A DNA stretch of 64,000 nucleotides from Polychytrium aggregatum (taxonomy: Eukaryota > Chytridiomycota > Chytridiomycetes > Polychytriales), in contig NW_026516236.1 of NCBI RefSeq assembly GCF_025602895.1, positions 310,001 through 374,000 of the forward strand, written 5' to 3'. Shown here in pieces: positions 3,001-55,300 of this stretch; the first letter of the stretch is position 1; each line of letters begins with the position of its first letter. A program made the translations under genes and the position numbers. The notes below the pieces were generated by a model. The model was not told the origin of the DNA, ran no database searches, and was given only the letters and a program-made list of their open reading frames with translations.

Positions 3001-6000
3001 GCAACTCGAGCAATCGGCTCAGAATGCAGATGATGATGCATGTGGTTATCAAGAGCCATGAGGTTTCGCTGGATGCTACGGAAGGTTGCACTGTGGAGCG
3101 GAATCTCGTGGTGAGTGCCCTCGTCGCCGTCGTCGGGCTGTTCGCCAAACTCCTCGATAAATTCATAGGCACCGTCGTCCTCGTCTTCTTCCTCGCTCTC
3201 GTCCTCCTCGTCCTCCTCTTCTTCTTCAATGTCGTCGTTCGTCAAGTCAAAGAGTCCGTCGGAATCATTGCGTTGGCGGACGCCGTCCGCACCAACGCCA
3301 AGGTCATGGTCGCCATCGTCTCCTTCGCTTTGATCCTCTGTTCGTCGGTCAACGTTCATATCATCTTCGGCATCGACCCACATGGCATCGCCGTCGTCAA
3401 AGTCGATGGTCGGAGCAGCGCCCTCAACGGCCCCGTCCTCTTCGCCTTCCTCCTCCTCTTCGTCGTCGTCATGGTCGTGATCTTCGTCGATTTCGTCGTC
3501 GTCTGCACCGATCTCCTCCTCTTCTTCGGGTGGAAGATCGACGCCGCCTTGATAGGTGTTTGGAACCACAATCTCCATGTCATCGTCGGCATCGGAGGCC
3601 TATTGCATGTAACAATCGCGTGAGCAGCATGGCCGCAACAAGGATTCCCGCTAGACGCTATTCTGGATCGGTCGGCCGTGTATCAACTGCCGCGGATTGA
3701 TTTTGGGATCAACTGCCGCGGATCACCCGCCACGGTTCATGGCCTGCCATTTTCTACTCGGATTCGATTCCATTCGATTCCATTTTCCACACCATCGCTC
3801 TCCGCTGGTCGACACCCCTTCACCGACTCCCGTCATTCCTCCGCGCCTCGCTTTTGGCGAGCCTGTGCACCTTACCAGCGAGTCTTCGCTTTCGGACATA
3901 TCCTCGCCCTCGGTTGTGGTGTAGTCGACATATTCAACATAACCTTCGTCGTCCTCGTCGTCGTCATAGTCGGTGGATTCGTTCTGGTCGTTGGCATCAC
4001 CGGCAGCGTTGAACATGCCCAAAGCAGAGGTGCGATACGCATTCGAGAGCTCAGGGTCGTCAATTTCCTCGTTTTGGATCCGGTCGTCCTCGTCCTCGTC
4101 CTCATCCTCATCTCCATCATCGTCGCTATCGTCAGCGCGGCTATCGTCAGCAATCTCCATGGCGGTGGCAGCACGAGCAGCAGCTGTTGGCGAGAGAGGC
4201 TGCGTGCTCTTGGGTTTCGGCGGGGTGGAGGCCGGGACAACCTTGCCGATCTTGATTGCCAGGTTGGACAGGAGCTCCAGCGGCTTGAGAATGGCGGCAA
4301 TCACGGTGGTGGCATTCGGATGGCCAGCATCGACTTCGCCCAGCATCGAGGTCAAGAGGGTGACATAGTTCTTCTCGAGCATGGTTTTTCCAACAGCGTT
4401 GATTGGATCCTCGCCGTTGACCACGGTCCGCACCTTGGTGCTGAGGATCTTGCAGCACAGCTCCGAGTACACAAAGAACTTGGAGTACTGCTGCTGCAAT
4501 GTGTCGGCGCTGGAGAGAGACTCTTTCATGGCTCGGGCAACGGCTTCGAGAGCCGCCTTCTTGCTTGTCGTCGTCAGGATATCGCGCTTGGGTTCTTTAG
4601 CATCATCCGGGGACGACTTGGTGTCTGAAAAATCGATCGACAGGGCAGTGAGCAGCGAGGCTGCCCAGCGCGATTCGTCAATGCGCACTTTGTCGAGCTT
4701 GCTGAGTTTGCCTTCAAGGCTCAGGCATCCGTGGGGCAGGATGTCTTGCACCACATGATTCACGATCGGAATGCGGCTCTTTTGTGGAGTCTTGAGCCGT
4801 CTGGACGAGCTGCCTTCCAGGATCTCGTACTTGCACGCCTCATAGGACACAGCCAATTCTGCCAGGGCCTGCAGCAGGAAGCAGCGCTTGATGTGGAACC
4901 GCTCATCATCTTCGTTGAGCTCGGACGAGGGCTTGTCATAGTGTGCCTTGCCCTCGGCCTTCATCTTGAGCAGCTCGGAGATGATAAACTGCACAACAGC
5001 CTCGGCGGCGGTCGAGGATGTTGCTCGGTCGGCCTTGGAAGGCACCTCATCACGGGCGTCGACAATGGCCATGGCTTGTCCAGCTTCAGCAACCTCAGTC
5101 GGTAGCGAGGCGGGATCCTTGGTGTCGGGGCTCGTGCCAGAATCGCCGCCAGCAGGTTTCTTGGGACCTATGTTCTTGAGGCCGATCGGCTGTCGAATGG
5201 TCCTGGCCGAGTGAGGATTGAAGCGCTTGAGCTCGCAAGTGCCGACTATGGCGTCGAGAAAGGCGTCTTTGCTACGCAGTACGGCGCCACTGCAGGTTCG
5301 CAAAAACTGGTTTATCTCATCCATTCCTGGATGGCGGGCTTTGGAGAGGGTCCGTGTGATCTCGTCCTCCATGGTCGTCTTGAGGGTCTCCTGGGTCTCG
5401 ACAGCATGGCGAATGATCATCATCGACATGGCCAGCTGATTTGCAAATCCTCCAAACCTGGAAGAGTTGAACAGCTCAGCGATTCCGCCAAGGTGAACAA
5501 ACTCGGATGCGATGCGCTGGTCCTTGGTCAAAAAGACGAGAACAACCATGAGGGCATTCTGGAGGTGCTTGCCGTAGTGCTTTGCCTTGCTCATTTCCAG
5601 AATCGAAGCCATCAGCTTTGTCTGGCCCTCATGGCCCTCGAGGATGTGATCTGCACCGCCGCTTCCGCTGGGAGCGCCGCTATGTCCGGCGTTGCTGTGT
5701 GCTATCAGATGGAGCTCAACGAGCAACAGCGCTGGCGACAGCCACACAGGCTCGGTCTCGTCCACAGGTCGCTCGACGATCCTCTTGACGATGTCGCCAA
5801 TCAAGGGGCGGGTGGCCTGGAGCACATCTTCACGAATCGAGCCTTCGCCTGTGAACAGGACAAGCAGCCGCAGCGCCACATGTAAGCGCTTGGTTGTAGC
5901 CTCCTCGAGTACGCCTTTGGCGATCTCTGCAAAGTCGTCCCCAGCGGCTTTGACCAGGAAATTGAGGAGCTCTTTGTTCTTGGTCTTGATGATGTGGAGG

Positions 6001-9000
6001 ATAATGTCGCGAATATCGAAGATGGCAGCCTCGGACTGGCAGAGGAGGGGGATGGCTACATCGATAAAGTCGTTCTCGAGCTCGCTTCGGATGCTATTGA
6101 GCTTGACGAGCTGCTCGTTGGCTCGCTTTGTCAGGGTCACGGAGTCGGGGTCGTGACTGAGCGACGTCGAACGATCGGTTTGTGGGGTCTCAAGCGCGGG
6201 CTTTGATTCGGTCGGAATGCTGCTACTGCTGCTGCTACTGCTGGCCTCGGGCAGCGCCATAGTCGGGGCCGATGTTCCGGCCATTTCAGTGTCGACGGGG
6301 GCGGGCGCTGTGGATGAAGACGAAGACGCGATGGGCTCGCCGGCCACGGCAGATTCGACCTCGGGGAACAAAGGGTTATCGGACGAATCCGCGGCTCCTT
6401 CTGGAGCGTTTTCTCCGAGCAGCGTTGGGATTCCGAACGGAGGTACCGGGGCCGTTGACGTGGTGGGCGTGGGATCGTCGAAGAGCACCTCGGGATGACT
6501 GAGGAGATAATCGGCCGCCCGTCCGATGTTGTTGTGGAAGCGAATGAGGGCATTGGCGGAAGCACCGCGGGGAAAGCCCATATCCATCAGCTGCTGGACC
6601 CGCTCTTCGTTGGCGGCTTGAGCCCGCGGCTGGGTTGCTCTGCGGTTGGCGGATGCAGGAAATCCAGGGAAGGAGCTAAGGAAGGTGGGGAGGCTGAGAC
6701 TGTTCTCGAAAAACTCATGCGGAAACCCGGGGAGGCGCGACGACCGACGTTCTTCGCCTTGGCCTTTCAGGATCTCCTGGACGATCTCGAGGACTCCGCT
6801 CATGATGGACCGCGGCACGGTGCGGCCTTGCTGCTCGCGCCAAATCTTCACGATCAGCGGCGCGATAAGCAGGCGAATATCGATCAACAGCTCGTTGTGG
6901 AAGTGAAGGTACCGGTGGAACATTTTGTCCCCGTCGCCAGGCGCAAGGACGAGATGGGTGGTCGAGTGGCTATGGTGTTTCGCGGAGCAGAGAAACGCGA
7001 ATACAGACACGATGCTTTCGAGCAGGGTGATGGTGTGGTTCTTTGGCTCGCCCTCAGGTTGGGACAGAGCTTCGGTGTCGGACCAGGCGCCCTCAGCGAG
7101 CGACAGTAGGGTCTCGATGCCACCGTGCAGCACGAAGGCGACTGTGATGCTCTTCAGAACAGTGCTTTTGTTGCGATCTGAGAGGTCCAGAGTCAGTTCG
7201 TGGCAATGGGTTTGGCGCACAGGATGTCAGTGAGTAGGCAAGGACTACAGGAGCGACAGCCTCAGCGGGCACGCGTCTGTCTCTCGGCACATGCAAGACA
7301 TGGGCTGCGATAATAGCATTGGTACTCGGGGCAGCAGCGACACAGGATCCAACGCCACCATGCAAATCACATGAAGCATACCGTCTGATACAAGGGCTAT
7401 GATAAATACTACGCCGTTGGTCAGATATTCGTTCCTCATGGCGCCGCCGCCATGAGCTGAGCAAGAGCGAGCGAGAGAGAGCGCAGAAAAAGGCCGGCAT
7501 TAGAACAACAATCCGACGTCACGAGGCCACCCTGCAGAGTTTCGGGCGGAATGTATAGGCGGTGGCGCAATCATCCTGCACATCAGGAGTGGTGATGCCC
7601 TCTGCCTGATTCCTGTGAGCACACGGAGGCTGGTATGCAACGTACCAGGGCGTTCCCATCTCAAGTGATCAATCAAGATCTTGGCGATAGCCTCAACGAG
7701 CTGATGGGCCGCGAGACGCTGGGCAGCATCGATATTGCGCCGGGCCGAAAGGGCCTTGACCACGGACTGGAAGGTGACGCCGAGGACACTCTGAATTTCG
7801 GTCAGCAAATACTTCCAAGCCTTGACATTGACCAGCTTGTGCTTGTCGAGCGGAGACGGGTCTGTCGCCATAGGTGTGCTTGTGCCGCCAGTGGCAATGT
7901 CCGAGTCAATGGGGACGATGCGGTCGCCCATCCCGGAGGCCAGAACGGTGTCTAGCGCATCAAACGAGGACGAGGCAGTGCTCCGTCCCAAGGAGCTCAG
8001 AGCCGTCGACACAGTCTTCTGGGCTGGGTTCTTCTTTGGGTTGTACCATGCGTCTGGGACAGAGCTCTTGAGACACATGTTCTCGAAGCCACAGGCACGC
8101 TGGAGCTGGCCGAGCGAAGACAGCAGCGTGTCGTCCTTCTCGCCAAACGCCTGCAAGATCATGATGATGCCGCGCGTAACCGAGAGGCTGTGGCTAAACC
8201 ATATGTCCGAAAGCAGCCGGGTGTATCCGTTGATGGCGGCGAGAGCACGAAAGAGCCGGTTTCCGCTTTGCAGCTTGGCGGCGTCTGCTCGAAGAGTGGT
8301 ACATTAGTGAGCCTGACTCGCACTCGGGGACGCACTGATGACGACAGCTTGGAAAGGGAGGGAGCAGCCGATCCAGTACCACAAACGACTCAGGATCACC
8401 GACTATCAACACACCTTCGATGTCAATGTACTGCATGACCACACTATCGCCTCTGGCGTTCATTAGCTCCTCGGCCTCCGCGAGCAGGCGCTTGAGCTCA
8501 GCCGTGATATGGCCAATGACGACCTGGTGATCGGCTTCAATCAGAGCCCTGAGCAAAAAGCTCATCGAGTACGACGATGGTGACGACGGAAAGTCGTGGG
8601 GAACGCCAGGAAGCGCCGTGATTGCCAGCAGAGGCTCCATGCCACCAAGCTTGATAAAGTCTTTGGAATGAGCCGGGTTTTGGAAGAAGCCCTCCATGAC
8701 CTACGGTGGGTGACAGAATCGTGTGTGAGTAGTGCGGAGCGTGGCGAGTCCAGATTGCAGAGCCGCAGAGCCCAGGCGCATGCCAACCGAGACAGCGACA
8801 CGGGCGGCCGTGCGGGTATATTATAAAATGACCGCAGCTTCTCTGATGCGAGCTGCTGAGGTAGGGAGCAGCGACGTACCCTGGTATAGATGTCGAAAAA
8901 TTGCAGAATTCTGGGCTCGTTGCGCGCCGCAGAGGATCCATCGTGGCTCAAAGTCGAAATGTCGGCTGCGACCGTGTTCGAGGCCGTATTGAGGAACACC

Positions 9001-12000
9001 ATCGCGACTTCGTCGGGTTGGACAACCTTGCCCATGTCCACAATCGCTTGCAGCGTCTGGACGATCGCGGTGATGACGTCGGACTTGAGCGACGGATGGT
9101 GGCGCACCAGCTCGTCCAGAGCGTTTCCAACAAGATTGGGAACGTCGTTGTCCTGCAGGCTTTTGAGGTTCTCTTCGGCCGTAAAGAGCGACAGGAACTT
9201 GGGCACGGGTTTGGCTGCCATAAATCCGTCCAACCCGACCTGGTTCAGGCAGATGGCGCCAAAGGCATTTGGGAGGGCCGAAAACACCTGAACGGGAGGT
9301 GTGCAGCTATTTAGCAAGCAGGTCACAGGGAGGCCCAGGATGGCAGCGAGCGCTCTCGCCAGGAGCGGTGTCCTGAGCAGCAAGGACAGACCGAGCCCAA
9401 CGTGGCTCAAGGACGGACATGCGGGATTGTACCTCGGCAGAGACGGGAAAGGGACCGCTGAGGGCCGCCAAGAACTCCTCCGGCAGCTTGGACTCTTGGA
9501 GAATCGCCAAGCTTGTCGGCTCGTTGTGAATGAAGGTCGCCATGATGTTGACAGCTGTGGGTGAGCCAAGCTTTACATTAGTACATGGAGTGTGGGCCGG
9601 CAACCACAGGTCCCAATCAACGGAGCCTCATCGTGGGGCGGTATAGCAACCCAGGTTGGATCCTGATGCCGGACAGGCCGGATGGGCCGGGAATAATACT
9701 CACCAAGGCCAAAAATGCCGGCACCGTACATATTGGATTTCTTGTAAACCTTCAAGATCGACGACGGGAGCGATGAATCGATCAAGCTGCGCATGTTGTC
9801 TGCGGTGCCGGCGGTTTGCATCATGTGCAGGACAAACTTGAAGAGGGCCCTGATGAGGACGGCGCCTTCGTGCGGGATCTCGTATGGCTGCATGCTGTTT
9901 TCCGAGAGGATCCAGTAGTGCTCGACTTCGTCCTGTTGCCACACGGCCGGCCACGACGGAGCCATGGAGGACATGCAATGATTGCGGCAGACATGAGAAC
10001 GCGGCATTCATTCAGCTAGATGCACGGATCCACGGAATATATCCGTCATCAGACGGACTCACAGCCAGCATTGCGATACATACTTTGAGTCGTTGAACCA
10101 ACAGCGCCAAGCCGTTGTTGCCCGAGAAGGCCGAGAAGGCCGACGTGAATCCGTAGATCAAGTTATCCAGGAGCGTGATGCATCGGGAGATATACTGTAT
10201 GTGTCAAATAGGCCCAATCCATTCCGTCGACGTCGCCGAAGTGATGAGAGGGAGCACCAACGTCGATCGTGACAACCGAGGAGGTTGCAACGGAATGTAG
10301 TGTGGATGGCGTTAGTCGCTGAGGATGCACGCTTCTGGACGGGGACGGGAGGGGGGCTTTACACTCCGATCGACCATCAGTTTGCATTCTCACCTTAACG
10401 CGGCCGGGATCTGTGATGCTCAGGACATCGGTGAGGGCCTGGATCAAGCCGCCGCTGATCATCAGATTGCCGCCGGTCTGGGTGGTGGACACATGGGTCA
10501 CCAGCGACAGTACCGCATCAGCGAGTTCGCGGGACGGGCTTTGATCTTGAGCCGAGAGGGAGAGAGGGAGAGAAAGGGAAAGCCGACAGTTAGTACGGTC
10601 GCGGATCAAAGTCGAAGCTCAGAACGAGCGCATTTCATGGCCATGCGAGTGTCCTCAGCACGAGACGTGCGCACCATCGGTGTGACCAGTGGTGATCTTC
10701 TTGACGAGAGACATGAGGATGCCGTGGTTTGCGGAGGCATTGAGGGCAGCGAGCACCTCGTTCATCTTGGCTCGATGGCGGGCAAGGCCATCGAGGGCGT
10801 GCATGGCCGCACACTGGAGCGGCTATCGTATTCCATGATGGCCAGCGCAGGGCAACGGGGAGGAAGAGGCGTTAGAAACCGCGCCATCGAAGCGGCTCGA
10901 CGTGCACCATCTGCGATCAGAGAGAGCAGTACCTTGCCAACGAACGAGTCGCTCTTCAGGAGCGCTGCAAGCTGAGTAATGAGATCGGGCTCGTAGAGCA
11001 GGATCTTGGTCTGGATGGCCTCTTCGTTGGTCAGGTTGGCTGTTGTGAGAGAAGAGAGACAAGCAGTGGGCAATGGCATGAGTTGCGCGACGAACAGGAA
11101 AGAGATGGATGACCGTGCCCCTCAAGGAACACGCCCAAGTATTAACGGCGCAGCACAGAGCGAGGCGGGGGTGCGACGGCGAAGAAGCCAGAGAAACAGA
11201 CACGGGCAAGTGCATCGCAGCCGGCGACTTACCGAATATCGCGAGGGCCAACAGACGCAGCTCCAGCATCTTCACTCGCGTCGCTGCGGACTGCAGGCCC
11301 CAGATGGTACGAATGCGATGGAAGAGCGGAAACTGGTGCTCGAGCGGGATCTTGTGCTGGGAGACCAGGCTGGCGAGGATCTCGGTGTCGGAGGCGCCGG
11401 CCAGCCGGAGATCCGGGACGAAGATGCTGACCGGGGCATCCTTCAGGGCCGGCGGTGCGGCAATGATGGGCCGATGTTCGAACAGAGCGGCCGCGGAAGC
11501 TGCCACCGCGGGTCCAGCGTCAGCAGCAATGCCAGCGGAAGAGGTGGGGGGAGCAGCTGGACCAACGGCCGAGACGGCATCAGGTTGGGTGGCGGATGGG
11601 CGAGCATCGGCAGAGGCCACGGCCAAAGTTGGCTTTGGATCGGCCAATTGATAGTACTGGAACGAGAGCGAAAAGAGATCGGCCGAGGGCACAAAGTCGG
11701 GCGAAGCAATATCAGCGAACGCCGTGCCGGCACGCAGCGAGGGCCAGCGCTGAGCGAGGAGCACAACGGCCTCGTGGGCGGATGTGAGAATGGTTTTGAG
11801 ACTGCGCTGGGAGCTGATTCTCTGTGCCGAGCGGATGAGCAGGGCCAGGACCGACTCGAGGACGACGATGTTTCGGGTGCCCAGCAACTTGATGAGATGC
11901 TCGTAGGAATTATACAGATTGCGGTTGGTGCAGTTTTCCCAGAGCAGCTTGGTAAAGTGCAAGATGCTGGTGATGATTGGCACAGACTCGGGCGCAAGCT

Positions 12001-12253
12001 CGGAATCCAGGATGGACGCAGACGAGGCCGGGGTGGAGTCGATGGGCTTTGTGATGGCCTCGAGGACCAGGTCGAAGCGGTTGAGGACCGGGATCCAGTG
12101 GAACATGTCGCCCTTTGGATGCGACCATTCAGGCAGGCTGTGGATGAGGGTCGGCAGGTCGTCCTGCGGACAGCTCACGAGCTGATCCGAGAGAGCGACC
12201 ACCCATGGCGGAGCGGTGGCCAGCCTCTTTGGAGGGATCTTTGTGATCTTCAT
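1..12253 (-). CDS. TOM1: HUWE1/TOM1-like HECT E3 ubiquitin ligase, 5' part (3' end off window)
   Basis: Giant E3 ubiquitin ligase of the HUWE1/Tom1 family, which ubiquitylates nuclear and ribosomal substrates through a C-terminal HECT domain. That domain lies beyond base 1. The first exon starts at 12253 (MKITKIPPKRL) and carries the DUF908 armadillo-like region to about 11200. Short exons follow, with the DUF913 region around 9560-8950. A long exon at 7220-3900 holds a UBA domain near 6640-6500 (QQLMDMGFPRG, then a phenylalanine-rich helix). Acidic Asp/Glu stretches lie at about 4160-3950 and 3560-3100. Two ubiquitin-binding UBM-like motifs (LAALPEDLQEEII near 2000, LSVLPEELRFEVL near 1890) sit in the DUF4414 region, and conserved pre-HECT helices run to the edge. 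The order DUF908-DUF913-UBA-acidic-UBM is diagnostic of the family. At least ten introns are implied by frame changes. No WWE domain was seen, as in yeast Tom1. Family assignment is firm; exon limits are not. Confidence 0.93.
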
Positions 12254-16275: not shown

Positions 16276-16826
16276 CCGACTCCGTGCGCTGATTGGCTCC
16301 ACCTGGCAGGGCGGCCAGCCAATCGCAGCACGGCGTGGCTGGGCAACTCCCACTATCAATTTTTTTCCGGCCCCTCGCGGCTGCTCATCTCGGTCACCTG
16401 AAAGTCACGTTGTATGTGACGCAGCAAAAGTTGGAATCCAGCCATGGTCGGTTGACGGCATTTGGTATCACCTTGAGCCGATTGACGGTGGTGGTGGGCA
16501 ATTGGTGTGGAGGAATGACCAATTGTATCATTGTTGGAAGCTCCACTCCGATTGCGGACAAGAACCACCACCATCTGAATCTCTCTGGTTGGAAACCTAG
16601 TCAAGCGTGGCTGTGTGTCAGCGAGATGACATGATCGTTTGGCTATCAGGCAAGACTCACCTTGACAAGATGTCTTCCCACGACTGATTGAGCGAGCGAT
16701 GCGTTTCTGGATCTGAATCAAGGACGCCACTGTGCAGTATCTCTGCCAGCCCAAAATGCGCTGGTTTTGAGGAGAATTTTTCTTCCCCAAGGGCAGAACC
16801 AGCCATCGTCGCTATTTTCTCGCCAG

Positions 16827-19237
16827 ATGGCTCCCAAGAGAAAGGCACCCCCGACCCCGACCCAGGATCACCCAGTGACTCTCCTGTGGCCAAGAAGCCC
16901 GTCATCAAATCATGCCCCTCCTGTGGATTGACCAACCATGTCAGACCCTTCACCAAGAAGTGCACAGCCAGAGTCGACAGCAGCCCTGCCTCTGGCTCTG
17001 CCTCGGTCGCTGAAATGGTCAGCCAAGCACCCCCTCCAGACGAGCCCAGCGAGGACACTGCCTTCCCAGCCCTCGTGGTCGAGATGCCCGCACCCAAGGT
17101 CCCTGTATGTGCCACGTGCGGGGAAGAGGGTCATGCCAGAAGCAACAGTTCATTGTGTACCAAGAAGAACCCACTCTGGAGCTCTACCTTGCCTGACTGT
17201 GGCCCCAACGAGCAAGTCAAGGCCGAGTACTCAATCATCAAGTGCACTCTCGATGCCATCATCAAGAACGATGCCTTGCACGACAAGATCGAGGAGACCG
17301 TCCGGGCCATGACACACGTGCAGTTCGAAGCATCTCGTCTCCTGGAGCTGCATCTCAGGCGGTGCTTGGACGAGGGCATCACCCTCCCCACTGTGTCGTC
17401 GAAAGACCCCTCGTTTGTTCGAAAGTGTTTCAACATGGTGCATACCGGAACAGTGGGTGTCAGGACAAACACCCCAGAAGATGACAGGCATCTCCTCGAC
17501 ACATATGACCTGTATCGACGTGCATGGGGAAAGTCGTGTATCCTGCCTCCAGTGTCCCTCCCAAAGGGTACTGGGTCACAGGTCCTTGGTTTGGCTGTCA
17601 AGACCTATGCAGTCAACTGTGAGACCCACGTTCTCGATCGTTACTGGTCTCTCCTCCGTCGATTCTGCAATCTGGCCCTGGTTGCTCCCAAGGATGGGAA
17701 ACGGCATACACACGTCGATGATTGTGTCAAGCTGATGGAGAATCCCCTCTCCAAGACACTCCTCGTTGATCTGAGGAAATCCTTCGCCCACCATGCCGAC
17801 CAGTTGTATGAGTTTCGGTACGAAAGCCACCAAGACCTGTACAAGGTCGTACCAGTATTGGCCAGTGAGGTCTCTCGGCTGACCCGCCTGAAGGAGGCCC
17901 TCTTCATGGTGGTCTTTCAGAAGATGATCATTCCCAGGCTCGCGAGGGTGACTGATGATCTGAAAGGAGAGCGCGAGCGACTGAACGAAGAGATGTGTCG
18001 CGCCATCGAACGAAGGCTGCCTGACAAGCACAACGCACTCCAGACCCAGCACGAGGAGGTGGACAAGCAGATCGCTGTCAACACGAAGCGGATCAAGCGA
18101 CTGGCCGACCGGCTTGCCCAGACCAAGAAGCGACACAACATCCCTCGAGCACAGTGCACCTTGGTCCCGCTCTGCGATGCCAGAGCCAAGTATGTCAAGC
18201 TGGACACCAAAGCATTGTGGGAGATCCTTGGATACCAGACTGGCACTGGGCTCAAGTGGGACGACCTGAGGACCAAGGTCAACGACACCACAAAACAAGA
18301 GATCTTCTGGCAGACCAACTTCAAGCTGGAGTCGAGACTCTTTGGTGCCAGGGAGAAGGGGAAGCAGCTCTTTGGCTGCGAGATCACCACCGATGGGGTC
18401 GGGTGCTCGATCACCACGCTCAGATACAAGATCCTGAAGAAGGATCCTGATGTCAAGCCAGAAACCGTGGACAAGGACGACAAGACACCCAAGCTCACTC
18501 CCAAGAAGAAGATCCAGACCAGGGTCGGTCCCATTGACGACTCTCGGACCACATGGATCGGGATCGACCCTGGTGTGGGATCGATCTTCACCGCTGTCAT
18601 TCGGGCACCCGGTCAACCATCCATCCAGGAGCAAGACGGTGTCAAGGTGACCAAGGCACAGCGTGCCAACGAGAAGATCGTGTCGTTCTCCAACAAGGAG
18701 TACCAGCATCGAACTGGCACCACCCAAGCGACCAAATGGATCCAGAGCACCCACAAGATCCTTGGTCTGCAGAAATGGATGAGCACCACACCAAGTCCCA
18801 AGATCCCTGGGTTGGCTTCATTCCTGCAATACATTCGCCATGTGTTCGATGGAGACATGCTGGAGAAACAGCTGTACTTCAGCCTGACCCGGCGACGGCG
18901 ATTCAAGCGACTCGATCTCCACAGCAAGCGACAGCGCACCGTCCACGAGATGTGCAAGCAAGTCATCGACCAGGCACCAAAGGAGACCGAAGTGGTGATT
19001 GCCTTTGGGAATGCCTCCTGGAAGCAAGGGAAGGGATACGCATCCAGTCCCAGGAGACTCAGGTTTGCCAAATACTTTGAGCAATTCCACCACCACCAGA
19101 GACGCCCACCAGACCGATCCGTCTCCAAGATCCATGTGTGCTCGGTGAACGAGTTCAACACGTCCCAGGTGTGCTCACATTGTCGGGAATTCAAGCGACT
19201 TGAGTCACCCGAGTATCTTGATATCGAGAAACCATGA
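16827..19237 (+). pseudogene. Fanzor RNA-guided nuclease homologue, frameshifted and C-terminally truncated
   Basis: Homologue of Fanzor, the eukaryotic TnpB-like RNA-guided DNA endonuclease, closely similar to the copy at 29075-31645. The ATG at 16827 (MAPKRK) is equivalent to the start of copy 2. A C-run five bases long here, six in copy 2, shifts the frame a few codons later, so the long open frame (16688-19237) is not in phase with that start. RuvC-I (WIGIDPGVGSIFTAV), the RuvC-II-like strand (VVIAFGNASW), the VNEFNTSQ motif and the first zinc-ribbon pair (CSHC) are all present. The frame then stops right after YLDIEKP, before the second cysteine pair and the last RuvC motif. RDINASRN is still recognisable out of frame about 19275-19300. 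The N-terminus has a 20-odd-residue insertion between its two zinc knuckles relative to copy 2. Splicing could in principle rescue part of this, but it is probably inactive. Confidence 0.93.
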
Positions 19238-19395
19238 AGCTATGCAGAGTGAATGCACCACACTCACACATCGAGACATCAATGCCTCAAGGAACATGAT
19301 CTCGGTATGCCAGTCGATCATCGCCACAGGAGATTGCCGACGAAGTCAGGAGTGCAATGCCATGGCCTACCCGCTGGGCCTACAGTCAGTCAGTG

Positions 19396-19446
19396 GGCTT
19401 CAGAAGCCAGAAAGTGACTGTCCCGTTTCTTTCTGGATAGACTGTA
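19396..19446 (+). ncRNA. Candidate omega-RNA (guide RNA) scaffold end, Fanzor copy 1
   Basis: Just past the Fanzor coding remains, GGCTTC-A-GAAGCC (19396-19408) can form a 6-bp hairpin. It is followed by a 28-nt block (19419-19446) beginning TGTCCCGTTTC and ending GACTGTA. The block is identical in copy 2 and in the solo relic at 51922, while the hairpin is kept with different length. TnpB and Fanzor systems encode their guide RNA at the 3' end of the gene, so this is the expected place. The RNA itself is inferred, not shown. Confidence 0.5.
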
Positions 19447-19718
19447 AGTATATCGCACTGTTCCTTGAGTATGTCGACAGTGGATGCCGGGTCGCCCATA
19501 TTCTGGGCAGTCCACTTCGGGGTTGCCATCCCTCTTGGGATGGTCGATGGGAGGTGGTTGACTCCCTTGTGCAGAGTGTGTGTGTGTGACGGCGAGAGGC
19601 TTCTCGCCTTCCCTCGGGGGTCTCTCGCCAGAGACTGCTCTTCTCGCCGACCGAGGTGGCTCCGAGAGCCGCTTTTTCGTTCTCGCTCATTTTATTAACA
19701 AGAAATTTTTTCATAGTG

Positions 19719-28557: not shown

Positions 28558-29074
28558 CGAGAAGGCCGTCCTCGCACCTCGATCCCGCTCAGATCTGCCT
28601 TGCACTATCAATTTTTTCCGGCCCCTCGCGGCTGCTCATCTCGGTCACCTGAAAGTCACGTCGAATGTGGAGCAGCAAAAGTTGGAATCCAGCCATGGTC
28701 GGTTGACGGCATTTGGTATCACCTTGAGCCGATTGACGGTGGTGGTGGGCAATTGGTGTGGAGGAATGACCAATTGTATCATTGTTGGAAGCTCCACTCC
28801 GATTGCGGACAAGAACCACCACAATCTGAATCTCTCTGGTTGGAAACCTAGTCAAGCGTGGCTGTGTCAGCGAGATGACATGATCGTTTGGCTATCAGGC
28901 AAGACTCACCTTGACAAGATGTCTTCCCACGACTGATTGAGCGAGCGATGCGTTTCTGGATCTGAATCAAGGACGCCACTGTGAGCATCACTCCCTGCCC
29001 AAAATGCGCTGGTTTTGAGGAGAATTTTTCTTCCCCAAGGGCAGAACCAGCCATCGTCGCTATTTTCTCGCCAG

Positions 29075-31645
29075 ATGGCTCCCAAGAGAAAGACACCCCC
29101 CGACCCCGACCCAGGATCACCCAATGACTCTCCTGTGGCCAAGAAGCCCGTCATCAAATCATGCCCCTCCTGTGGATTGACCAACCACGTCAGACCCTTC
29201 ACCAAGAAGTGCACAGCCAGAGTCGACAGCAGCCCTGCCTCTGGCTCTGCCTCGGTCGCTGAAATGGTCAGCCAAGCACCCAAGGTCCCTGTATGTGCCA
29301 CGTGCAATCAAGAGGGTCATGCCAAAAGCAACAGTTCATTGTGTACCAAGAAGAACCCACTCTGGAGCTCTACCTTGCCTGGCTGTGGCCCCAACGAGCA
29401 AGTCAAGGCCGAGTACTCGATCATCAAGTGCACTCTGGACGCCATCATCAAGAACGACACCTTGCACGACAAGATCGAGGAGACTGTCCGAGCCATGACT
29501 CAAGTGCAGTACGAAGCATCTCGTCTCCTGGAGCTGCATCTCAGGCGGTGCTTGGACGAGGGTATCACTCTCCCCACTGTGTCGTCGAGTGAACCCGCGT
29601 TCGTTCGAAAATGCTTCAACATGGTGCAGACAGGAATGACTAGTGTCAAGAAAGGCACGACCCAAGAAGACAGGCACATCATCGATACCTATGAGCTGTA
29701 TCGAAGTACATGGAGCGAATCGTGTATCCTGCCTCCTGTGTCCCTCCCAAAGAGTACTGGCTCACAGGTTCTTGGTTTGGCTGTCAAGACCTATGCAGTC
29801 AACTGTGAGACCCACGTTCTCGATCGATACTGGTCCCTTCTACGCCGATACTGCAATCTGGTCCTGGTTGCTCCCAAGGGTGTGAAACGGCACACACACG
29901 TCGATGAGTGCATGAAGCTGATGGAGAATCCCCTCTCCAAGACACTCCTCGGTGATCTGAGGAAATCCTTCACCCACCATGCCGACCAGTTGTATGAGCT
30001 TCGGTACGAAAGCCACCAGGACCTGTACAAAGTCGTACCAATTCTGGCCAGTGAGGTCTCTCGCCTGACCCACCGAAAGGAGGCCCTCTTCATGGTGGTT
30101 TTCCAGAAGTTGATCATTCCCAGGCTCGCGAGGGTGACCGATGATCTGAAAGGAGAGCGCGAGCGACTGAACGAAGAGATGTGTCGCGCCATCGAACGAA
30201 GGCTGCCTGACAAGCACAACGCACTCCAGACCCAGCATGATGAGGTGGATAAGCAGATCGCTGTGAACACGAAGCGGATCAAGCGATTGACCGACCGGCT
30301 TGCCCAGACCAAGAAGCGACACAACATCCCTCGAGCACAGTGCACCTTGGTCCCGCTCTGCGATGCCAGAGCCAAGTATGTCAAGCTGGACACCAAAGCA
30401 TTGTGGGAGATCCTTGGATACCAGACTGGCACTGGGCTCAAGTGGGACGACCTGAAGACCAAGGTCAATGGCACCACAAAACAAGAGATCTTCTGGCAGA
30501 CCAACTTCAAGCTGGATTCGAGACTCTTTGGTGCCAGGGAGGAGGGGAAGCAGCTCTTTGGTTGCGAGATCACCACCGATGGGGTCGGGTGCTCGATCAC
30601 CACGCTCAGATACAAGATCCTGAAGAAGGACCCTGATGCCAAGCCAGAATCCGTGGACAAGACACCCAAGCTCACTCCCGAGAAGAAGATCCAGACCAGG
30701 GTCGGTCCCATTGACGACTCTCGGACCACATGGATCGGGATCGACCCTGGTGTGGGATCGATCTTCACCGCTGTCATTCGGGCACCCGGTCAACCATCCA
30801 TCCAGGAGCAAGACGGTGTCAAGGTGACCAAGGCACAGCGCGCCAACGAGAAGATCGTGTCGTTCTCCAACAAGGAGTACCAGCATCGATGTGGCACCAC
30901 CCAGGCGACCAGGTGGATCCAGAGCACCCACAAGATCCTTGGTCTGCAGAAATGGATGAGCACCACACCGAGCCCCAAGATCCCTGGAGTGCCTTCTTTC
31001 TTGCGATACATCTACCATGTGTTCGATGGAGACATGCTGGAGAAACAGCTGTACTTCAGCCTGACCCGGCGACGGCGGTTCAAGCGACTCGATCTCCACA
31101 GCAAGCGACAGCGCACCGTCCACGAGATGTGCAAGCAAGTCATTGACCAGGCACCAAAGGAGACCGACATCGTGATTGCCTTTGGGAATGCATCCTGGAA
31201 ACAGGGGAAGGGATATGCTTCCAGTCCCAGGAGACTCAGGTTTGCCAAATACTTTGAGCAGTTCCACCACCACCAGAGAGGCCCACCAGACCGATCCGTC
31301 TCCAAGATCCATGTGTGCTCGGTGAACGAGTTCAACACATCCCAGATGTCCTCACATTGCCGGGAATTCAAGCGACTTGAGTCACCCGAGTATCTTGATA
31401 TCGAGAAACCACACTTTGTCCGGAGCTGTGCAAGCTGCCATACGCTGTGGGATCGAGACATCAATGCAGCCAGGAACATGATCTCGGTATGCCAGTCGAT
31501 CATCGCCACAGGAGATCGACCGGGTGTATTCAAGACTGTGCTCCCGAAACCAACCCAAACAAAGAGATTGCCAACCAGGACGGGAAACAATCTCACGGCC
31601 TACCCGCTGGGCCTACAAGTCAGTCAACGGGCTTCAGATATCTGA
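29075..31645 (+). CDS. Fanzor (TnpB-like) RNA-guided DNA endonuclease, full-length ORF
   Basis: 856-aa uninterrupted ORF. The ATG at 29075 is preferred because it opens MAPKRK, a nuclear-localisation-like start. Two N-terminal zinc knuckles of form CX2CX4HX7C follow (CPSCGLTNHVRPFTKKC, then CATCNQEGHAKSNSSLC). A long helical region fills the middle. RuvC-I is WIGIDPGVGSIFTAVI, with catalytic Asp557. The RuvC-II strand IVIAFGNASW has Gly704 where TnpB has Glu, and VNEFNTSQ gives Glu752 some 48 residues on. This matches the relocated glutamate described for Fanzors. The zinc ribbon has SSHC (Ser759, Cys762) and CASC (Cys785, Cys788), so one expected Cys is replaced by Ser. RuvC-III is RDINAARN, with Asp795. 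The stop codon lies inside a 3' hairpin. Fanzors use a guide RNA made from the 3' end of their locus to cut DNA. The missing cysteine may weaken activity. Confidence 0.96.
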   Translation: MAPKRKTPPDPDPGSPNDSPVAKKPVIKSCPSCGLTNHVRPFTKKCTARVDSSPASGSASVAEMVSQAPKVPVCATCNQEGHAKSNSSLCTKKNPLWSSTLPGCGPNEQVKAEYSIIKCTLDAIIKNDTLHDKIEETVRAMTQVQYEASRLLELHLRRCLDEGITLPTVSSSEPAFVRKCFNMVQTGMTSVKKGTTQEDRHIIDTYELYRSTWSESCILPPVSLPKSTGSQVLGLAVKTYAVNCETHVLDRYWSLLRRYCNLVLVAPKGVKRHTHVDECMKLMENPLSKTLLGDLRKSFTHHADQLYELRYESHQDLYKVVPILASEVSRLTHRKEALFMVVFQKLIIPRLARVTDDLKGERERLNEEMCRAIERRLPDKHNALQTQHDEVDKQIAVNTKRIKRLTDRLAQTKKRHNIPRAQCTLVPLCDARAKYVKLDTKALWEILGYQTGTGLKWDDLKTKVNGTTKQEIFWQTNFKLDSRLFGAREEGKQLFGCEITTDGVGCSITTLRYKILKKDPDAKPESVDKTPKLTPEKKIQTRVGPIDDSRTTWIGIDPGVGSIFTAVIRAPGQPSIQEQDGVKVTKAQRANEKIVSFSNKEYQHRCGTTQATRWIQSTHKILGLQKWMSTTPSPKIPGVPSFLRYIYHVFDGDMLEKQLYFSLTRRRRFKRLDLHSKRQRTVHEMCKQVIDQAPKETDIVIAFGNASWKQGKGYASSPRRLRFAKYFEQFHHHQRGPPDRSVSKIHVCSVNEFNTSQMSSHCREFKRLESPEYLDIEKPHFVRSCASCHTLWDRDINAARNMISVCQSIIATGDRPGVFKTVLPKPTQTKRLPTRTGNNLTAYPLGLQVSQRASDI

Positions 31646-31689
31646 AGCCCGAAATGGGATCTGTCCCGTTTCTTTCTGGATAGACTGTA
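31629..31689 (+). ncRNA. Candidate omega-RNA scaffold end, Fanzor copy 2
   Basis: A perfect 22-nt palindrome (31629-31650, arm GGGCTTCAGAT) overlaps the last codons and stop of the Fanzor ORF. The 28-nt motif at 31662-31689 (TGTCCCGTTTC...GACTGTA) follows. GAAATGGGA/TCCCGTTTC (31651-31672) could form a second hairpin in this copy. The first hairpin and the motif recur in copy 1 and in the solo relic. ORF-overlapping structured 3' RNA is how TnpB and Fanzor guide RNAs are organised, so this is the best candidate; its ends and guide segment are unknown. Confidence 0.52.
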
Positions 31690-32049
31690 AGTATCTTGCA
31701 CTGTTCCTTGTGCATTTCGACAGTGGATGCCGGGTCGCCCATAGTCTGGGCAGTCCACTTCGGGGTTGCCATCCCTCTTGGGATGGTCGATGGGAGGTGT
31801 TTGACTCCCTTGTGCAAAGTGTGTGTGTGCAAAGTGTGTGTGTGTGCGGATGTGTGTGTGTGTGACGGCGAGAGGCTTCTCGCCTTCCCTCGCTGGTCTC
31901 TCGCCAGAGACTGCTCTTCTCGCCGACCGAGGTGGCTCCGAGAGCGCGTTTTTTCGTTCTCGCTCATTTTTTTAACAAGAATTTTTTTCATAGTGTTGGC
32001 CCTGGTTGCTGCTGCATGAGCCGAGCCCTGGATCCGGCCATCCCCAGGA

Positions 32050-51921: not shown

Positions 51922-52217
51922 TACAGTCTATCCAGAAAGAAACGGGACAGTTCCTTCCTGGCTTCAGATGTCTGAAATCCGCTGACTGACTGTAGGCCCC
52001 AGTGAGCAAGCCGTGAGATTGTTTCCCGTCCTGGTTGGCAATCGAGTGGTTTTGGTTGGTTTGGGAAGCATGGTCTTGAATACACCCGGTCGATCTCCTG
52101 TGGCGATGATCGACTGGCACACCGAGATCATGTTCCTTGAGGCATTGATGTCTCGATGTGTGAGTGTGGTGCATTCACTCGACTCTCTGGACAAAGTGTG
52201 GTTTCTCGATATCAAGA
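51922..52217 (-). pseudogene. Solo Fanzor 3'-end relic with scaffold-like hairpin and motif
   Basis: 296 bp matching only the 3' end of the Fanzor unit. It runs from CTTGATATCGAGAAACCACAC (about codon 770 of copy 2) through THRDINASRN and GDRPGVFKT to the hairpin TTCAGA-CA-TCTGAA (51976-51963) and the 28-nt motif (51949-51922). Homology to the transposons stops exactly at the end of that motif. No CACTAT termini are present. Its GAATGCACCACACTC stretch is shared with copy 1 rather than copy 2, so it derives from a copy-1-like lineage. It lies about 500 bp upstream of the kinase start codon. Either a truncated pseudogene or a stand-alone guide-RNA unit. Confidence 0.85.
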
Positions 52218-52239
52218 TGATGCTGTGCTTGGCCATGAA

Positions 52240-52331
52240 TGCGATGAGTGGGTGGGTGTATTCAGGTTCCAGAAAACAACACAGTCAAAGCTCAAAACGG
52301 GGGTGTCCCATTTCATTTTGGAAACGCTGTA
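52240..52331 (+). repeat. Diverged Fanzor 3' motif in inverted orientation
   Basis: Beside and facing away from the relic at 51922-52217, GGGTGTATTCAGG (about 52254) recalls the Fanzor GGGTGTATTCAAG. 52304-52331 then matches the 28-nt motif at 22 of 28 positions (TGTCCCATTTC...CGCTGTA), with no gap. The distance between the two is shorter than in the intact elements. Probably an older, internally deleted copy. Confidence 0.5.
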
Positions 52332-52376: not shown

Positions 52377-55300
52377 TCAAGAGGATATGCCCTCTGCCCA
52401 CTCCTTGATCATGTCCATTTTGTCGAGCGCCTCCTCCGGGATCATGAACATCATCGTGTGCGCACGCTGGATGTCGAAGGACAATCGCTGCAGGAGCGGA
52501 TACATAATTCCGAAATGGGTGACGATGAGGAAGATTCCGGTGATGGCCGAGAAGGTCTCGTAAAAGACCAACAACCAGCCGATCCAGTTGGTTATAGGAT
52601 CGACCGAGCTGCTGAGGATATTGTCGCATGCCGGCGGCAGATACATGTCATTGTACTTGCGCAGCAGCTTGAGTTGGGTGATGATGCCGGATGAGTTGGG
52701 GCTGCTCTGGATCCAGTTGGAAACGTTCTGGGCAATGTCGAGGAATCGGAGGATTGCCGGATGGAGCCCCGAGGCGATCACGCCCGAGTCAAAGGTTGCG
52801 CAGTCCGAGGGCGAAGTACTATTGATGCATCCGTTGACCATCGAGACGGCGTATTCGTTGCTGGTGGTCGAACCAAAGGTGGCCGAGGTGCCGGAGCCAT
52901 AGGCCAGGGTCATTTCGATTGTGCCGAGCAGATTGATAAAGTTATTGCTGGTGTTGCTCCATGAATATCCGTAGAGGTCTTGGCGGTTCAAGGTATGAGG
53001 ATTCATGACTGGTGTGGCGTTCAGGTAGTACTCCCTCAGGACAAAGTATACGCCCTCGGTCGAGACAGAGCGCCGGATGACCATATCGACCCTCGAGAAC
53101 TGAGTCGTGGCCATGCCAAAGAAAAAGTACGTCACGACACCGACCGCCAGGAAGAACGTGATCACGAGCAGAAGCAGCAGGGCGACCTTGCGTCGTAGCC
53201 CGTGGCTATCGTCAAACTTGATGTGCATCTCCTCAAACCGCCTCCAGGCCACAAGGCAGCAGTTTTGGTTGGATTTCAGGAGCTTATCGCGCTTGCGGAT
53301 GTTGGGGCTCTCAGCGGTGTTATTTTTGACAGCGTTACTTCGGCCGGAGACTCCGGTGGCATTGGCGTTGAACGCCTCGACTCCCTGGTCCTCCTCCATC
53401 TCGTCTGTCATACCCGTGAGTCGCTCTGTATCAAGCATAAGCGAATCACATTCAGAAACACCGCGCATAGTTAGCAAGGGGCGGATCAGGCTTGGCTCTA
53501 GGGAACATCGTATGCACCACTTGCTGCGGACACGGCAGCGCCGATTTGGCTCTGTGGCATGGATCACACTGGTGCTCGGGCAGAGGGTTGCTGCATGACA
53601 AAGTCGATCACTGGCACGAAAGGCGCCGGCACTAAGCACCATCTTGCTCGAAGGACTTTGGAGGTGGTGCAGCTTACCTTGATGTCCCTCGCAGATGCCT
53701 TTGATGACCTCCTTGGGAATGCTGAAGAAGATGCGGAAAAAGCGCTCCTGGTCCTTCTTGATCCTGAAGTAGCTCGGGTGGATGATGAATATGTAGATCG
53801 CCATCAGGAACAGCGGCGGAATCAGCGAGACGTACAACAGATAGCTGCCAATCTGATTGGTTTGCAGCCCGGCGCCAAAAGCGGGCCCAATGGTCGGAAC
53901 GACATTGTTGATGCAGTTCTCGAGGAGCAAGGCAATGCAGTTCGAGACATTGAAGTAGTTTGCAGCCGTGCTGTTGGCGACGCACTGCAGCGACATGATG
54001 TATCTCCCCACGGCATTGTAGGAGGTCACGGACTCGATGACGGAAGTGGATCCGTTGATGCGGGTGGTGTAGTTGACGTTTCCAAACTGGATCATCTGCA
54101 GCTGGGCAGATCGGATGTTGGGCAAGTTTGCGATGATGGTCGACTGGGATACGGACGAGTTTGGAGGCTGGAGCGCAGCTCCCTTCATGAAGAGATCGAC
54201 CGAGCGAGCCTGGCTCAGCGTAATGACCATGGACCGAGCCCCAAAGTAGAAGCTCTTGGCCGACTGGAAGATATTGAGGACATTGGAGAGGTTGGTTTGC
54301 AGCAGGCAGGTCAGAAGTACGCCGCCTGTACATGAAAGAGTGGCGGAGGAGTGTGTTAGCAGTGGTATCTTGGCTGAGTAGGTGTCCTCTCCGTTAGCGC
54401 CGTGGATCTCAAAGGCAACTGTATCCACACAGCATCGCACATACGTGGACGAGGCACCCCTTTGATACTCACATGCAATTATGAAGAGAATCAGCAGTAG
54501 AAAATATCTGCCCAAGTTGCGTATGTGCTGCTTGATGATCCTGTTCTTCTTGAAGATCATCTTGCGGATGCGCGCTGTGCGATTGCCTGCAGCGGACGAG
54601 GCGACACTGCTGCTGTTTCCGACGCTTGCAGTCCGCATGAGCGACTTTGGTGGAGGCGGAACCAGCAGCCCAGAAAAGTCACGCAAGCTGTCCTTTTTCT
54701 GAGGGCCGTGGAGCTCCCGTGATCCATCGGCCGAGAACGTCATGGGCATGGCGGACTCTGAATCCACGATGCTCTCCAGATTAGAGGGGACTGTGAGCGA
54801 GAGAACACGACAGAATGTGAGTAAGATAGGCAAAGTGGATGAACGAAGCACATGCATAAGATTTGGGCGTGTACTGGCTTGTGTTGCAAAGGGTTGGAGC
54901 GGGCTGTCTGTGCGATGCACCGGCTGCGGTGCGATGGACAAGCAATCGACCCAAGCAGAGCCAGTCACGCATGTACCTGCAGAGAGCTGTGAATTCAGTC
55001 GTGGATACTCGATCCGACAAATGTAGTGCTTTCCGATGGGCAACTGCTCCAGCTTGATAGTCATGTCGTACTCTCGTCCATTGAACGACAGCTTCTCCTT
55101 GTATCCAGCCTTGTCGGTGAACTTTGCCAGGTTAGGCACGGTCAGGGCTGGGATCCACTCGGCAATATTGGGGGTTTCGTCTTCGTCCCAGATACCAAAT
55201 ATGTTGATGATGCCTGCCGTGACGTGCCGGATTTCGAGGTTGGAGTTGAGGACGAGAAGTTCCTGGCATTTGGATGGATTGCTGGGAGCGTCTTTGATTA

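Follow-up and report, generated by a model that had tools for sequence, protein, structure and literature searches.

The stretch of DNA analysed here, positions 310,001 to 374,000 of contig NW_026516236.1 in the Polychytrium aggregatum assembly GCF_025602895.1 (64,000 nucleotides; hereafter the window), carries two copies of an element in which a Fanzor-type nuclease gene is packaged between the ends of a CACTA-type DNA transposon. Copy W2 (28603..31995, forward strand, 3393 bp) is a non-autonomous element running from CACTATCAATTTTTT to TTTTTTCATAGTG, flanked on both sides by TTG as a 3-bp target-site duplication (TSD; 28600..28602 and 31996..31998). Copy W1 (16351..19718, forward strand, 3368 bp) likewise extends from CACTATCAATTTTTT to TTTTTTCATAGTG, has the TSD TCC and contains a broken open reading frame (ORF). 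An original prediction, made from the letters of the window, had described both copies with CACTAT...ATAGTG termini and these duplications; its coordinates and ends were confirmed, and its claim of base-exact borders held up, with the flanks of unrelated sites diverging right up to the borders (22 bp compared per side).

Fanzor elements of the window and their genomic family

All parts of W2 lie on the forward strand. A left CACTA-side region (28603..28916, element positions 1–314), unmatched in the mariner-type Fanzor element described below, is followed by 53 bp from the 3′ end of a Tc1/mariner-type transposase gene (28917..28969), the Fanzor-type ORF (29075..31645), the fossil right inverted repeat of a mariner-type Fanzor transposon (31662..31689, terminating in GACTGTA) and a right CACTA-side region (31690..31995) with the terminus TTTTTTCATAGTG, the reverse complement of which begins CACTATGAAAAAAA, like the autonomous CACTA element of the same genome. 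The right end also has a TG-rich tract of variable length (element positions 3226–3300, window positions ~31828–31902), with a conserved block on either side.

The ORF of W2 encodes an uninterrupted protein of 856 amino acids with a PF07282 TNB/OrfB zinc ribbon (E 2.8e-8, above the Pfam cut-off), a domain present in seven of seven aligned proteins. By eye, it follows the C-terminal signature motif for Fanzor/TnpB as given in Bao and Jurka (2013; PMC3627910), D-X(125-275)-[TS][TS]-X-X-C4 zinc finger-X(5-50)-RD, with D557, 197 residues, TS (T755/S756), the C4 finger, five residues and RD (794-795). The first zinc-ligand cysteine is a serine in W2 and a cysteine in the other six aligned proteins; in W1, the remainder of the ORF is shifted by one base relative to the ATG, and a stop cuts off the C-terminus. 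Because of these two defects, neither window copy is certainly active, and other copies are therefore better candidates for an active enzyme. A whole-genome search with the protein (70 matches; 1529 first-look candidates) scored at least 53 places, the second Fanzor subfamily included, of which 16 match from residue ≤5 to residue ≥846 with no internal stop (the alleles on contigs C1 and C307 among them). A PDB sequence search gave no Fanzor match, nor did a search of viral contigs with peptide patterns give any match.

The genome searched was the assembly of 64.7 Mb in 418 contigs. The left end CACTATCAATTTTTT occurs 84 times (reversed control 0) and the right end TTTTTTCATAGTG 150 times (control 3), with autonomous-CACTA ends among the latter. 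When ends were paired by the CACTAT...ATAGTG patterns, at least 61 of the 84 left ends had a right end within 9.9 kb, a count that is a lower bound. The 61 pairs listed comprise 29 long elements (3343–3876 bp), 26 gene-less ghosts (1540–1711 bp), three elements of 2.2–2.6 kb and three short ones. Both borders were read in 61 elements (60 of the 61 pairs and the element on C392). A perfect 3-bp TSD flanks 44 of them (42/59 and 2/2 in two sets) or, counted by distinct site, 31 of 44; with a chance 3-bp match at ~1.7% per site, the binomial P for the observed TSDs is ~1e-44.

CACTA/EnSpm (CMC) transposons have CACTA termini, 3-bp duplications and a PF02992 transposase. The Fanzor element likewise begins with 5′-CACTA and has the inverted repeat at its other end (CACTAT...ATAGTG in the 61 paired elements), makes 3-bp duplications and has a PF02992 transposase in a putative partner family; it differs in its Fanzor cargo, its non-autonomy and its one-sided target motif. 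No transposase domain was found in the Fanzor-CACTA element, the content of which is the Fanzor-type ORF and the 53-bp mariner remnant.

All 11 ghosts read have one common internal deletion junction, with small differences and, by eye, a CACC microhomology, and all 11 meet a stop within 63 codons of the usual ATG. At two places (G000:C418:159978 and C212:162429, right flank), a CACTA-type ghost adjoins AATTCGGGGTGTCCCGTTT, which by eye resembles part of a mariner-type repeat and is possibly a nested insertion.

Mariner ancestry of the cargo and a resident CACTA family

A second Fanzor subfamily in this genome, here called element B (loci L040 and L041), is 3788 bp long and has imperfect 28-bp inverted repeats beginning TACAGTCAA, with TA at both ends in the two copies read. 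Copy L040 contains a broken DDE_3 transposase gene (PF13358, E 2.1e-17) upstream of Fanzor, and with a TA duplication, terminal inverted repeats and this transposase (the last taken from L040), element B belongs to the Tc1/mariner type. Three mariner-type parts survive in the CACTA-type elements, namely 53 bp at the 3′ end of the mariner transposase gene (90.6% to element B in W2), the Fanzor gene and the right repeat as far as GACTGTA, after which comes sequence absent from element B. The fossil right repeat sits just 3′ of the Fanzor stop codon and is present in 22 of 23 aligned elements, missing only from the 295-bp L022. Since the transposase-gene 3′ end and the right repeat are both preserved inside, sequence comparison identifies the cargo as the remnant of a Tc1/mariner-type Fanzor transposon with a relative still in the genome. 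A special constraint on the fossil repeat (0.017 versus 0.10 for its neighbours) was considered and is not counted, as 312 of 1540 equal-length windows are as low.

No uninserted CACTA ancestor, with the left part joined to the right part and no mariner remnant between them, was found among the elements read; even C370, at 665 bp, retains the fossil repeat. The 278/295-bp pair and L009 (~250 bp matching the left and right ends) were considered for this role and rejected: they lack the repeat and also most of both sides, and look like deletion derivatives.

Within the window, the mariner-type Fanzor element is also represented by a ghost (51922..52331, reverse strand, 410 bp), which has TA at both ends and no CACTA part. 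The left repeat of this ghost is related to the one in element B (the two align with a score of 16, against 6 for the best of 500 shuffles), and the ghost contains the last ~300 bp of the Fanzor gene, a scaffold-like segment and the right repeat. Adjoining it is a 1006-amino-acid ORF (52380–55397, reverse strand), a host gene with no Pfam match to E 0.1. Two other reverse-strand ORFs of the window, at 10826–12253 and 3726–7220, have DUF908 (E 1.7e-32) and UBA (1.6e-8) domains and are ordinary host genes; we take the two domains to be those of HUWE1/TOM1-type ubiquitin ligases.

A candidate source of transposase is also resident. Of the 29 PF02992 matches in the genome, 23 fall in contigs that the right-end list covers, 17 of these 23 with an end bearing CACTATGAAAAAA 2290–2291 bp away; from this spacing an 18th copy (C388) was predicted and then confirmed by reading. 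Complete autonomous copies span CACTATGAAAAAAAAGCTGACG to CCTATTTTTT(T)CATCGTG, measure 5.68–5.69 kb in the two cases measured and have a perfect 3-bp TSD in 7 of the 11 read at both ends; the autonomous element has a PF02992 match of E 3.3e-11 and a sub-threshold match to DUF4218. The sequence CACTATGAAAAAA is common to this family and the right end of the Fanzor elements (13 bases in most copies, 14 in W2), and no further homology between the two was found beyond these 13–14 terminal bases. Because that is all they have in common, we infer, and go no further, that Fanzor elements may be mobilised in trans by this autonomous family or a relative. An autonomous family with the left end CACTATCAATTTTTT was sought among the unpaired left ends L009, L012, L021 and L023, which gave no match to the autonomous element. 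Two other PF02992 matches, L029 and L030, each gave one short weak match to it and no recognisable end pair in the 3.2 kb examined. At L039 (G000:C201:119900-127000), a gap of ~36 bp separates two autonomous copies whose 3′ ends point towards each other; the same contig has a third copy nearby.

Insertion sites were compared across the 31 distinct sites with a perfect duplication. The base just left of the TSD (position -4) is A or C in 31/31, the first TSD base is T or C in 30/31, position -5 is A in 17/31 and position -6 is a purine in 26/31; among the 12 positions tested on the other side of the TSD, no uncorrected P falls below 0.037. When imperfect sites are added, -4 is A or C in 43 of 45 (with the allelic pair C404/C21 entered twice). 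A possible difference between Fanzor and ghost sites at the second TSD base weakened once imperfect sites were viewed by eye and was dropped. This one-sided left-flank motif fits a target-adjacent motif (TAM), in which the nuclease motif would lie to the left and the guide to the right, but it could instead be a target preference of the CACTA transposase, a possibility to which we give slightly less than an even chance. The motif R-A-(A/C)|(T/C) includes the first TSD base and is alike at Fanzor and ghost sites, and by eye the autonomous family has A or C at -4 in six of its seven perfect-TSD sites, all of which would suit a transposase preference. Its strong one-sidedness would not (the mirrored +4 position is G or T in 18/31 against A or C in 31/31 at -4; Fisher P 5e-5), and nor would the first TSD base, a pyrimidine at 30/31 Fanzor-family sites and at 4/7 autonomous ones (P 0.015).

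Mosaic copies and alleles with different interiors

Copies at different loci are mosaics, as judged from linkage between shared biallelic variants in 21 copies: the squared correlation (r2) is 0.76 at 1–5 bp, 0.39 at 11–20 bp and 0.13 at 21–30 bp, and beyond 30 bp, where linkage is gone, it stands at 0.05–0.06 (0.052 at 31–50 bp), with 0.048 expected for independent sites. Decay is similar for transversions alone and for the 10 Fanzor copies alone. Between-copy distances in the left and middle parts are uncorrelated (r -0.08), as are those in the two halves of the middle (-0.09), against 0.79 and 0.58 in odd/even-column controls. This short scale need not mean short tracts and can reflect many accumulated breakpoints.

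Among 10 Fanzor copies (45 pairs), the ratio of nonsynonymous to synonymous substitution rates (dN/dS) is 0.24–0.43, with a median of 0.31, which suggests purifying selection on the Fanzor ORFs, although part of the signal may come from exchange. Selection of this kind bears on a possible but rather doubtful alternative, that Fanzor is passive cargo of no help to a CACTA miniature inverted-repeat transposable element, with interiors swapped by post-excision gap repair or ectopic recombination among ~150 copies. Such cargo would suit the CACTA ends and 3-bp duplications, the near equality of gene-less ghosts and long elements (26 of 1540–1711 bp against 29, among the 61 pairs listed) and the finding that ghosts and Fanzor copies are about equally related between and within groups in all four regions compared. 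It sits badly with the dN/dS values, subject to the same caveat about exchange, with the 16 of at least 53 scored places that match over nearly the full length with no stop, and with the left-flank motif, as a symmetric DDE integration complex is expected to show no one-sided target motif.

Exchange of interiors can be followed at single sites. The same insertion with the same flanks was found on two contigs at 19 sites (15 recognised by their flanks, C61/C101, and W1/C413, C11/C83 and C12/C112), and the assembly is therefore taken to hold both haplotypes of many regions. At four of the 19 (W2, W1, C364/C378 and C79/C166), one allele has Fanzor and the other is a ghost. The ghost allele of W1 measures 1516 bp, from coordinates alone; that of W2, on C413, is 1540 bp long and shares the flanks and duplication of W2. 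In their left parts, W2 and its C413 allele differ at 3 of 484 positions (0.6%), less than any of the 209 other pairs (minimum 1.28%), and in their middles at 76 of 894 (8.5%), against a median of 6.7% for other pairs. The middle most like that of the C413 ghost (2.8%) is in W1, a neighbouring element that lies on the opposite haplotype. Thus, by sequence comparison, the W2 site has two haplotypes with different interiors, Fanzor and ghost, on the same left part and flanks.

That such allele pairs arose by simple internal deletion, with no conversion, is improbable. The single junction common to all 11 ghosts read, with its CACC microhomology, could mark a deletion hotspot, and in three of the four Fanzor/ghost pairs both alleles are not fully readable; simple deletion would nevertheless leave similar middles, and the middle at the W2 site is more different than that of the median unrelated pair, just where the left part is nearly identical. 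For C364/C378, identity over a 220-bp middle sample is 92.7%, a value that several unlinked copies exceed, while the 200-bp left sample (98.5%) is not discriminating. Still less credible is an origin of the mosaics in assembly or polishing: draft assemblies can scramble repeats, but scrambling should not spare alleles, and those on separate contigs are nearly alike (C390/C397 score 2417 and 2413 bits against one ghost and 2249 each against another, C1/C307 score equally in the protein search, and the left parts of W2 and C413 differ by 3/484).

Interpretation and relation to known Fanzor systems

Taken jointly, these results are best explained, at a probability of roughly 0.57, by a non-autonomous CACTA transposon with a mariner-derived Fanzor cargo, moved in trans, in which Fanzor-driven conversion is favoured and, judged by itself, plausible. 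A CACTA transposase would move the elements in trans, Fanzor would load RNA from the 3′ part of the element, and the Fanzor–RNA complex would cut sites or sibling copies; repair would bring in sequence from another element. Conversion of this homing-like kind would maintain purifying selection on the gene and mixing within the family.

Two stretches of the 3′ part are candidates for the RNA. Candidate (a), a putative omega-RNA scaffold ending at the fossil repeat (31613..31689, forward strand), has a compact predicted fold in which the junction is closed by the mariner right repeat (z -4.8 for the 80 nt of 31610–31689; alignment z -3.8; z -3.0 for the mariner-type counterpart). Candidate (b), on the CACTA side, is a near-invariant hairpin block 27–123 nt past the fossil repeat (31716..31812, forward strand; alignment z -4.8, single sequence z -3.9), the 21-nt core of which occurs 149 times in the genome with ≤1 mismatch and is exact at every place among the matches listed. 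Conservation alone is no mark of RNA, because element positions 76–314 on the left are likewise conserved (0.023); the scaffold alignment gives only weak covariation (of 18 pairs, 1 has changes on both sides), and an Rfam scan of 31560–32000 gave nothing near the gathering score. Where the guide ends would decide between homing within the family and the cutting of empty sites: if candidate (a) is the functional RNA end, the guide would be element sequence, and if the RNA reaches the CACTA border, the guide would be flank. A specific version of the former, in which the RNA ends at the fossil mariner repeat and Fanzor, guided by CACTA-family sequence, homes within the family by cutting insert-less or variant copies that repair then converts, appears unlikely, if less so than simple deletion.

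Several observations weigh against the explanation of a trans-mobilised element with Fanzor-driven conversion. As to the transposon, 13 of 44 sites lack a perfect duplication (by eye, some such elements have 2-bp, 4-bp or one-mismatch duplications and some none), and six of the 23 covered PF02992 matches, which are more divergent, have no CACTATGAAAAAA end nearby. The Fanzor and autonomous elements agree well at a single end, with CACTATCAATTTTTT on the left of the Fanzor element against CACGATGAAAAAAATAGG on the right of the autonomous one; the look for a CACTA transposase with matching ends, as proposed in the original prediction, thus led to a resident family with 13–14 bases in common at one terminus and a different other end. 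As to selection, the C-terminal stretch kept by ghosts has a dN/dS of 0.34 in ghosts against 0.27, and none of the 11 ghosts reads it in frame from the usual ATG; dN/dS therefore partly reflects exchange and is weaker as a test of present function, and the ghost value points to exchange between ghosts and Fanzor copies or to repeated recent derivation of ghosts. As to exchange, any ectopic recombination could yield mosaics, the comparison having no Fanzor-free control family with enough copies, and distances in the 3′-noncoding and CACTA-right regions correlate weakly (r 0.35, P 0.0055). The right ends of W2 and its C413 allele differ at 3/143 positions, a value matched or undercut by 87 of 209 pairs (1/93 over the last 93 bp, by 30 of 209); the left limit of the swap is therefore clear and the right limit not fixed. 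A joined-flank search at nine sites, the empty-site check proposed in the original prediction, gave no empty allele: four sites (W1, C11, C12 and C24) had a second place, occupied in each case, and five had none, which leaves both recent excision and homing into empty sites unsupported here. Guide RNA, cleavage and expression of Fanzor are, moreover, putative. Of the interpretation first offered, Fanzor-type cargo in a many-copy, transposase-less, CACTA-ended element thus stands as real, the cutting of empty sites after excision is not established, and the function proposed for Fanzor is plausible.

The closest published parallel is Spu-1 of Spizellomyces punctatus, the elements with SpuFz1, for which the available text of Saito et al. 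(2023; PMC10432273) reports no transposase flanked by the same repeats and calls the biological role of Fanzor unknown. As described there, Spu-1 resembles the present element in its defined ends, its many gene-less ghost loci keeping the 3′ end, the lack of a transposase inside and the conserved bases just left of the left end; it differs from what we see here, namely CACTA ends, 3-bp duplications, one terminus shared by an autonomous CACTA family and, in the interior, an older mariner right end. Capture of Fanzor1 by several DNA transposon superfamilies (Mariner, Sola, IS4, Helitron and MuDr), and hence by mariner elements, was already known and the C-terminal signature is the same (Bao and Jurka, 2013; PMC3627910), although in the portion of that paper available CACTA/EnSpm is not among the superfamilies named and no mariner-to-CACTA hand-over is described. 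The terms EnSpm, CACTA and CMC are likewise absent from the available text of Yoon et al. (2023; PMC10711439) on Fanzors in DNA transposons, and the accessible part of a study of Auxenochlorella (PMC12633428) describes a genome in which a Fanzor repeat is abundant and an EnSpm-Plavaka transposon also occurs, with no link drawn between the two. The layout would be the same as for TnpB of IS200/IS605, with RNA from the right end and the adjacent motif on the left, to go by the available text of PMC10432273. What differs is that this is a DDE-type transposon with target duplications, in which RNA and cleavage are putative.

A literature search pairing Fanzor with CACTA found no paper, one pairing it with EnSpm a single preprint, and one on Fanzor and gene conversion none on copy exchange, judging by the titles listed; no published case of Fanzor on CACTA ends enclosing a fossil mariner end was found, within incomplete coverage of the literature. 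TnpB in IS200/IS605 is credited with cut-and-copy retention of its element. Jiang et al. are said to have surveyed Fanzor–transposon associations in 2023, and that survey could include CACTA/CMC.

Among the results, the stronger novelties are the hand-over from mariner to CACTA, the sites occupied by Fanzor on one haplotype and a ghost on the other (one of them with a foreign middle), the mosaic family and the one-sided insertion motif. The first indicates that Fanzor passed between transposon superfamilies inside one genome lineage. Were homing within the family true, it would explain why all fully read copies except very short deletion derivatives have Fanzor or a ghost, and why a dispersed family recombines, per base, at about its mutation rate, like a sexual population. 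With a defined element, a CACTA transposase family with a common terminus and a mariner-type relative, this genome offers a natural system for the role of Fanzor, in which an allelic series (Fanzor, ghost and short) and measurable exchange make cut-and-copy, homing and passive cargo testable against one another.

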